DNA of 53,573 nt. Origin: Granulicella sp. (GTDB lineage: Bacteria > Acidobacteriota > Terriglobia > Terriglobales > Acidobacteriaceae). The notes under the pieces were generated by a model. It was not told where the DNA came from and made no database searches. It saw only the letters and a program-made list of their open reading frames with translations. The stretch is taken from positions 489 through 54,061 of the forward strand of contig PLHC01000066.1 of NCBI GenBank assembly GCA_003138795.1, in the 5' to 3' direction. The position numbers and the translations under genes were made by a program. Below are positions 44,403-47,452 of the stretch, piece by piece (within the stretch, counting starts at the first letter, position 1; each line of letters starts with the position of its first letter).

Positions 44403-45425
44403 CTATACACTCGCCGATCGTGGAGGAGCCGCCGCGATCGCCTGCACAATCTCCGGAGGCAGTCCAAACCGAACATTCTCCGGCATCACCTCAACCTCTT
44501 CGACCGAGCCATACCCCTTGCCCTGCAAGTACGAAACAACCTCCTGCACAAGAATCTCCGGTGCCGATGCGCCCGCCGTGATCGCCACCGTTGTCACACC
44601 CTCCAGCCAGTCCAGTTGAATGTCCTCGGCCTTGTCGATCAGGTAGGAATGCGTTCCAATGTTTTGCGAAACCTCAACCAGCCGGTTCGAATTCGAACTG
44701 TTGCGCGACCCGACCACCAACACCAGGTCTGCTGCATGCGCGACATTCTTCACCGCCGTCTGGCGATTCTCCGTCGCGTAGCAGATGTCCTGCGCATGCG
44801 GTCCCACGATGTTCGGAAACTTCTTCCTCAGCGCCTCGATCATGTACCGCGCCTCGTCCAGCGACAGCGTGGTTTGCGTCAGATACGCAACCTTGTTCGG
44901 GTCGGCCACCACCAGCGCCTCAACCTGTTCCACAGTGGACACCACCTGTGTCACATTCGGGGCTTCGCCCTGCGTACCCTGAACCTCTTCATGGTTCCGA
45001 TGCCCCACCAGCACCAGCGAATACCCCTGCTTGGCAAACTGGATGGCCTCAATATGAACTTTGGTAACAAGTGGACACGTCGCGTCGATTACCTTTAGCC
45101 CGCGCTCCTTGGCCCGCTCCCGAACCGCCGGCGAAACACCATGCGCGGAGTAAATCACCCGCGCTCCCGCAGGCACCTCATCCAGCTCATCGACGAAGAT
45201 CGCACCCTTCTGGGCCAGATCATTCACCACGTAGCTGTTATGTACGATCTCTTTCCGCACATAGATCGGTGCACCAAACGTGTCCAGCGCAATTTGGACG
45301 ATATCGATGGCGCGCACCACTCCCGCGCAGAAGCCTCGCGGCTTCAGCAGTAGAACGCGTTTAGTGGTGGTGGATTCGCCATTGGGTTGGCTGACGTTTA
45401 CGGGATCGGCGATCGAGTTAGTCAC
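44403..45425 (-). CDS. ispH: 4-hydroxy-3-methylbut-2-enyl diphosphate reductase
   Basis: LLLKPRGFCAGVVRAIDIVQIAL...YVRKEIVHNSYVV...YSAHGVSPAVRERA...DATCPLVTKVH; GTG at 45425 is the probable start. Confidence 0.95.
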   Translation of the reverse strand: MTNSIADPVNVSQPNGESTTTKRVLLLKPRGFCAGVVRAIDIVQIALDTFGAPIYVRKEIVHNSYVVNDLAQKGAIFVDELDEVPAGARVIYSAHGVSPAVRERAKERGLKVIDATCPLVTKVHIEAIQFAKQGYSLVLVGHRNHEEVQGTQGEAPNVTQVVSTVEQVEALVVADPNKVAYLTQTTLSLDEARYMIEALRKKFPNIVGPHAQDICYATENRQTAVKNVAHAADLVLVVGSRNSSNSNRLVEVSQNIGTHSYLIDKAEDIQLDWLEGVTTVAITAGASAPEILVQEVVSYLQGKGYGSVEEVEVMPENVRFGLPPEIVQAIAAAPPRSASV

Positions 45426-45526
45426 ATCCCAAGTATACCTTTTTCGGCCATCGGTCGCACCGTCCCCAAGCACCAGGTCACCGTGCAAACCTCAACTGCT
45501 AAACCGATCGCCTGAAGCCTCTGGAT

Positions 45527-45673
45527 TTAGCTGGCGGAGCAACCCTGATGTTTGCAGTCGCACTTGATCGATGTGAATTGCTTGCTATCCTCGCAGATCT
45601 GCGAGCAGTACTTCTTTCCCTCGGGAACCGTACAGGTACAAGCTGTGTGCGCACATTTCTTGGATTCCGGCAT
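45527..45673 (-). CDS. Bacterial metallothionein-like protein (48 aa, 8 Cys)
   Basis: Not in ORF track. MPESKKCAHTACTCTVPEGKKYCSQICEDSKQFTSIKCDCKHQGCSAS; upstream SD-like GGAGGA. Confidence 0.85.
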   Translation of the reverse strand: MPESKKCAHTACTCTVPEGKKYCSQICEDSKQFTSIKCDCKHQGCSAS

Positions 45674-45760
45674 TGGTAAATCCTCCTCATTCGTTCTATT
45701 TATCTGACTTTTTCGACACTCGAGAACGATCGCGGGTTGTCTATCCCCGACCCCCGCAGT

Positions 45761-47452
45761 CTACACGCTCTGCTTCAACATTTGCTCTGCATGCCGCAAC
45801 GAGGTCTCCGTCAGGCTCGCCCCCGACAGCATCCGCGCAATCTCCTCGACGCGTTCCCCAGGCTCCATGCGCCGCACCCCCGTATGCGTCCTTCCGCTGC
45901 GCTCAGCCTTCTCGATCAGAAAGTGCTGGTCGGCAAACGCCGCAATCTGCGGCAGATGCGTGATACAGATCACCTGCTGCGAGCGCGACAAGGTCTTCAG
46001 CTTCTGCCCCACCGCCTCGGCCGCCCGGCCGCCAATGCCGATATCGATCTCGTCGAACACCAGCGTCCGTGGCAGCGCCGTCCGCCGCCGCTTCGCCGCC
46101 GCCCCCGCTCCCTCCTCAACCGACACCTTCAGCGCCAGCATCACCCTCGACATCTCACCCCCCGACGCAATCTCTGTCAGTGGCTTCAGCGGCTCGCCCG
46201 GATTCGTCGCAATTCTGCACTCAACCCTGTCCCACCCAAACCCCGTCCACGCCTCCACATCCTCGCGCGACCCCACCACCACCTCAAACCGCGCATGCAT
46301 CGCCAGCTCGTTGATCTGCCGCTCCGCGACCTTCGCCAGCTTCTGCGCCGCCAGGTTACGCTCTGCCGCCAGCTTTCGAGCCAGCACAATGTACTTCGCC
46401 GCCGCAATCGTCAGGTCCTTCTCCAACTCCGCCAGCCGCGCGTCGCGATTCTCCAGCTCCGACAACTTCGCCGCCGCATCCTGTCCGAACGCCACAACTT
46501 CAGCGAGAGTAGCCCCGTACTTGCGCTTCAGCCGATCGAGCGCCGCAAGCCGGTCCTCGATCTCCCCCAGCCGTTCCGGCGACGCCGTAATATTGCCCGC
46601 GAAGTCCCTCAGCGTCGCCGCTGCATCCTCCACGCTGGCCTTCGCCGCTGCCAACTGCTGCACCGTCTCCCGAAACTGCTCATCGAAACGCGCCAGGTCC
46701 TCCACATGCCGCAACGCCCCGCCCAGCAAAGTCTCCGCCGACACCTCCGCCTCGTACAGCAACTCCTGGGCCGCCGTCGCCGCCGTAAACAGCCGCTCCG
46801 AGTTCGCCAGCACCCGCTTCTCTGTCTCCAGCCGCGCATCCTCTTCCGCGTCGGCGATAGCCGCCGACTCAATCTCTCCAGCCTGAAAACTCCACAGGTC
46901 GATCAGCCGCAGCCGGTCCTGCTCCGCGCTCCGCAACGCATCAATCTGACCTGCCAGTTCGCGCCACCGCCCGTAGGCCGCGCCCACATCCTCACTACTG
47001 ATGTCCCCAAACCTGTCCAGCAGCATCCGCTGCTGCGCTGCATCGAACGCCACCAGCGTCTCCGACTGCGCATGCACCAACGCCAACTCAGGAGCAAGCT
47101 GCCGCAACACCGCCACCGTCGCCGGCTGGTTATTCACAAACACGCGCCCCTTGCCGCTCATCGCAATCTCGCGCCGCAGCAGGATCTCATCGCCCTCCGG
47201 ATCGATTCCATTGGCCTCGAGAATCTCCTCCGCTCCGGGTGTCGTCTCAAACACGCACCCGAGCACGGCCTTCTCCGCTCCAAAGCGCACCACGTCGCTC
47301 GACGCTTTCCCGCCCAGCAGCAGCGCCAGCGCGTCGATCAGGATCGACTTGCCCGCCCCCGTCTCTCCGGTCAGCAGATTCAACCCCGGCCCAAACACGG
47401 CGACCGCGTGGTCGATCACGGCATAGTTCTCGGCGCGCAGTTCCAGCAGCAT
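45761..47452 (-). CDS. recN: DNA repair protein RecN
   Basis: MLLELRAENYAVIDHAVAVFGPGLNLLTGETGAGKSILIDALALLLGG...SGGEMSRVMLALK...VFDEIDIGIGGRAAEAVGQKL. Confidence 0.96.
   Translation of the reverse strand: MLLELRAENYAVIDHAVAVFGPGLNLLTGETGAGKSILIDALALLLGGKASSDVVRFGAEKAVLGCVFETTPGAEEILEANGIDPEGDEILLRREIAMSGKGRVFVNNQPATVAVLRQLAPELALVHAQSETLVAFDAAQQRMLLDRFGDISSEDVGAAYGRWRELAGQIDALRSAEQDRLRLIDLWSFQAGEIESAAIADAEEDARLETEKRVLANSERLFTAATAAQELLYEAEVSAETLLGGALRHVEDLARFDEQFRETVQQLAAAKASVEDAAATLRDFAGNITASPERLGEIEDRLAALDRLKRKYGATLAEVVAFGQDAAAKLSELENRDARLAELEKDLTIAAAKYIVLARKLAAERNLAAQKLAKVAERQINELAMHARFEVVVGSREDVEAWTGFGWDRVECRIATNPGEPLKPLTEIASGGEMSRVMLALKVSVEEGAGAAAKRRRTALPRTLVFDEIDIGIGGRAAEAVGQKLKTLSRSQQVICITHLPQIAAFADQHFLIEKAERSGRTHTGVRRMEPGERVEEIARMLSGASLTETSLRHAEQMLKQSV

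Follow-up and report, generated by a model that had tools for sequence, protein, structure and literature searches.

Metallothioneins in general hold several d10 metal ions in a thiolate cluster. The closest described proteins are small bacterial metallothioneins, among which a GATA-type zinc-finger fold is present (PMC10612145). The prototype of PF02069 is SmtA of Synechococcus elongatus (1JJD), 56 aa in length, with a Zn4Cys9His2 core (PMC10119931). PflQ2 MT of Pseudomonas binds three Zn or four Cd, forms a Zn3Cys9His cluster and is encoded in an operon without a metal regulator; the metallothionein of Pseudomonas fluorescens is induced in stationary phase, aids survival of starvation and is dispensable for metal resistance (PMC7387436). 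Plasmid metallothioneins of Acaryochloris, Sphingomonas, Methylobacterium and Trichormus carry KCACxxCxC, a conserved middle His and a GCxHxGCxC end, none of which is shared by the acidobacterial protein described here; an ArsR/SmtB regulator is adjacent or in-frame in three of the four. A literature search for acidobacterial metallothioneins, with most subscription journals outside its reach, found no paper.

The gene is a minus-strand ORF of 48 codons (45673..45527) in the window, that is, the whole stretch of 53,573 nucleotides analysed from Granulicella sp. contig PLHC01000066.1. Start codon ATG, stop codon TAA (45527-45529, minus strand). The encoded peptide is MPESKKCAHTACTCTVPEGKKYCSQICEDSKQFTSIKCDCKHQGCSAS. 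Cysteines are at positions 7, 12, 14, 23, 27, 38, 40 and 45, histidines at 9 and 42. A Shine-Dalgarno sequence GGAGGA (45681..45686, minus strand) lies 7 nt upstream of the ATG (AATGAGGAGGATTTACCA-ATG), and an AGGAG-type site precedes the ATG in almost all relatives. The unlisted gene between ispH and recN, its ten Cys and His positions and its ribosome-binding site had been proposed in a sequence-only reading, and all agree with the translation; the strand, left unstated there, is minus. A plus-strand reading of 45527-45673 was rejected, its translation being unrelated. The gene is single-copy in the source draft genome (3.1 Mb, 172 contigs).

In a Pfam search the window protein has a single match, PF02069 (prokaryotic metallothionein; 18.8 bits, E 0.0019). 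Residues 4-46 align to positions 4-50 of the 51-position profile, so that the full profile is covered in Cys/His register. The score falls short of the gathering threshold of 33 bits, and the protein is formally not a member of PF02069. The same profile is matched by 18 of 33 aligned members of the acidobacterial family (best 4e-5), and above the cut-off by none of the 201 Acidobacteriaceae genomes. NCBIfam models match neither the window protein nor the 33 aligned members. The search against metallothionein HMMs proposed in the earlier reading thus returned the expected family as its sole Pfam match, but below the gathering score and with NCBIfam silent.

Searches of PDB, Pfam and NCBIfam with the window protein alone gave weak matches or nothing. 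With the acidobacterial-family profile against all PDB chains, SmtA (1JJD) ranks first, at an E of 0.26 that is not significant alone. A hhalign comparison of the family with SmtA and the four canonical plasmid metallothioneins gave E 1.7e-8 and a probability of 95%, as a single comparison of low-diversity profiles; the similarity to the plasmid proteins is full-length. A canonical metallothionein HMM scores the window protein at 15.1 bits (median of the acidobacterial family, 8.2 bits), a value reached by 0 of 5000 full shuffles and 0 of 5000 Cys-fixed shuffles (maximum 13.3). The resemblance to the SmtA/BmtA family noted earlier is therefore upheld by the sole Pfam match, the shuffles, the hhalign comparison and the Cys-to-Cys alignment with 1JJD. 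Judged by these alignments, the 48-aa protein is a divergent subfamily, sister to the SmtA/PmtA metallothioneins.

The alignment to SmtA runs the full length, through the hairpin (KCA[CH]..C.C; KCAHxxCxC on KCACxxCxC), the helix start (YCS..C; KYCSxxC on YYCSxxC) and the tail (C.H.GC; CxHxxC on CGHTGC). The acidobacterial protein is shorter than SmtA (48 vs 56 aa), with a middle loop shorter by seven residues. SmtA C9, C14, C32 and C36 correspond to Cys7, Cys12, Cys23 and Cys27; these four form site A of SmtA, which we take to be an inert zinc-finger site, and all are kept. SmtA C16, C47, H49 and C52 correspond to Cys14, Cys40, His42 and Cys45. The Cys9His2 ligand set of SmtA is not reproduced: Cys11 is usually replaced by His (His9), His40 and Cys54 have no counterpart, and Cys38 is extra and invariant.

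AlphaFold2 predicts a short hairpin and a helix at 25-30, just past YCS/Cys23 (pLDDT 77, unchanged when the alignment was deepened from 33 to 47 sequences). For both models, Foldseek places the Pseudomonas metallothionein 6grv (PflQ2 MT/PmtA) first; since E is 2-3, this match is consistent with a metallothionein and is not proof of one. Like that protein, the 48-aa protein is encoded without an adjacent metal regulator. Unlike it, it has no His-rich disordered tail, has eight Cys (nine in PflQ2 MT) and lies among other neighbours.

The pattern C-x4-C-x-C-x(5-14)-[YFH]-[CF]-[SCG]-x2-C-x(6-16)-C-x-C-x-H-x2-C fits 53 of 54 distinct members; exactly eight Cys are present in 47 of the 54. C12, C14, C27, C38, C40, H42 and C45 are invariant across aligned members; C7 and C23 are kept in >90%. 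A loss of the Cys/His pattern in relatives, which had been named as grounds for abandoning the metallothionein reading, is thus not observed. Position 9 is His in 40 of the 54 and Met, Thr, Asn, Gln or Lys in the others, so His9 is at most an optional ligand. The orthologue in G151 (L004), in which Arg replaces the first Cys (MPEPKKRAH...), is the sole pattern-breaker and may be decaying or may bind one metal fewer.

From these comparisons we infer fold, metal, stoichiometry and role as follows. The protein is very probably a cytosolic metallothionein from a divergent acidobacterial branch of the SmtA/PmtA family, in which a small thiolate cluster accompanies a structural zinc finger, and it would buffer Zn(II) or Cd(II). 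Cys7, Cys12, Cys23 and Cys27 would form a GATA/treble-clef-like structural zinc-finger site equivalent to SmtA site A. Cys14, Cys38, Cys40, Cys45 and His42, together with His9 where present, would wrap a small thiolate cluster against the zinc finger. With nine or ten ligands, a Zn3 cluster with bridging thiolates would suit better than the Zn4 cluster of SmtA; by analogy, about three Zn(II) or Cd(II) ions are probably bound, which is nearer the count in PflQ2 MT (three Zn) than that in SmtA (four). Inside the cell the protein would buffer Zn(II) tightly and sequester Cd(II).

An alternative is a SmtA-like zinc finger whose function is to bind another protein or a nucleic acid, with one structural Zn site (Cys7/12/23/27) and one mononuclear CxCxHxxC site. 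The zinc-finger half is conserved, members without His9 have nine Cys/His ligands, sufficient for two mononuclear sites, and the locus is a housekeeping one without metal genes. However, both Cys14 and Cys38 are invariant, though two simple sites would not need both, the alignment to SmtA spans the whole length, and besides the ligands and a few Lys, Ser and aromatic positions the residues vary freely, unlike a conserved partner-binding surface. We regard this alternative as improbable.

A copper-binding peptide, similar to MymT in function and storing or detoxifying Cu(I), is very unlikely. The protein is short and Cys-rich with CxC motifs, and such motifs can bind Cu(I). Against this, His42 is invariant, one half is a zinc finger of the SmtA type, the profile similarity is to Zn metallothioneins, and the MymT motif is described as absent from other bacterial metallothioneins (PMC10612145).

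The SmtA-like metallothionein proposed here is widespread. At E <= 0.001, the class sample yields relatives in 144 of its 399 genomes, and a phylum-wide sample of Acidobacteriota in 45 of 297. Among eight members of the genus, mean pS is 0.82 vs a mean pN of 0.26, and the window copy differs from its closest relative at 8, 5 and 21 sites in codon positions 1, 2 and 3. Substitutions are concentrated at silent sites, and the gene is under purifying selection. A chance ORF without a protein product, suggested by the short length and the overlapping plus-strand ORFs, is refuted by the class-wide conservation, a pN far below pS, the conserved Shine-Dalgarno sequence and the conserved locus; the ORF is a genuine protein-coding gene. 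A Genome_contigs scan for relatives found only one. Plasmid searches with the window protein and two relatives as queries matched nothing, leaving the variant without a plasmid-borne example among the sequences searched.

The upstream neighbour is recN, encoding a DNA repair ATPase (45761..47452, minus strand; ORF and synteny), and the downstream neighbour is ispH (44403..45425, minus strand; GTG start at 45425); both gene names are those of the sequence-only reading. In 28 genomes, spread over three genera of the family, the gene lies between recN and ispH in the same order. Tblastn with the neighbouring genes of the window recovers this arrangement in 15 of 20 regions of about 12 kb and in 12 other genomes covered by 3-kb stretches; the window itself is the 28th. 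In syntenic loci, squalene-hopene cyclase lies beyond ispH, followed by hpnH where read. In four relatives (G360, of the same genus, G072, G091 and G018) recN directly adjoins ispH without the 48-aa gene; the gene is therefore dispensable and was gained or lost at this site. Second copies and loci outside Acidobacteriaceae have different neighbours; by-eye reading of three such loci revealed no obvious metal genes.

The adjacent ArsR/SmtB repressor that marks an operon of the smtA/smtB type is absent at the 48-aa gene, unlike in SmtA. With three metallothionein-linked ArsR proteins as tblastn queries, no ArsR/SmtB was found in the window or in the acidobacterial loci examined; five PF01022 matches lie elsewhere in the source draft genome. 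A search for the Fur/Zur family (PF01475) found no member in this 95%-complete draft, although 13 of 14 control genomes have one. A generic sigma-70/terminator scan at the gene found nothing, and Rfam gave no match around it. With no neighbouring SmtB in control, expression could be tied to stress or to the stationary state, as in Pseudomonas; together with the precedent of Pseudomonas fluorescens, this makes a role other than detoxification plausible.

The 87-bp spacer between recN and the gene (45674..45760, minus strand) holds a weak copy of a two-block element. In relatives the spacer carries RCAWCYY-N15-CATCYVA about 60 nt upstream of the ATG, in some as ACATCTY-N15-CATCYVA (e.g. L012, L013, L017, L023, L030); the copy in the window, ACAACCC-N15-TGTCGAA, is a weak match and starts 67 nt before the ATG. 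Both blocks are conserved, and the 15-nt spacer between them is variable. The element totals 466 bits over 29 sequences vs about 280 in shuffles, a figure inflated by near-duplicates. The strict pattern occurs seven times in eight related genomes, six of them at the 48-aa gene; it was derived from these very loci, and the informative part is therefore its near absence elsewhere in the genomes. The element could represent either a promoter for an alternative sigma factor or two operators in tandem.

A TATACT -10-like box (45432-45437, minus strand) lies 6 nt before the GTG start of ispH, and 23 of the 24 ispH loci scanned (L038-L054, L091-L097) have a conserved TATACT box 3-8 nt ahead of the start codon. 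Its position suggests leaderless ispH mRNA across the family. Probably ispH has its own, leaderless promoter, in which case the 48-aa gene need not belong to an ispH operon.

Acidobacteria rank with the most common bacteria in soils. Roughly one in three sampled class genomes carries this metallothionein gene, which is overlooked because its product is short and does not reach the family cut-off. More broadly, and tentatively, we propose a phylum-wide acidobacterial metallothionein subfamily, Cys8His1-2, missed by standard models, fixed in Acidobacteriaceae-type genomes between recN and ispH under a two-block element independent of SmtB; its members might be constitutive or stress-controlled zinc buffers in soil, not metal-induced detoxifiers. 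The family would offer a natural test of a ligand change on the zinc cluster (Cys11 to His, His40 and Cys54 lost, Cys38 gained) and of the role of a bacterial metallothionein when no neighbouring SmtB controls its gene.

Two of the plasmids contain reading frames of separate note. On plasmid C of Trichormus variabilis ATCC 29413 (L089:1980-2198), PLSDB lists no gene at the site of a canonical metallothionein ORF whose C-terminal tail is longer. On plasmid pMaq22A_1p of Methylobacterium aquaticum (L088:1605-2150), where PLSDB lists no gene, one continuous frame encodes an ArsR/SmtB-type regulator joined through a His/Asp-rich linker to a canonical metallothionein, an apparent sensor-metallothionein fusion.
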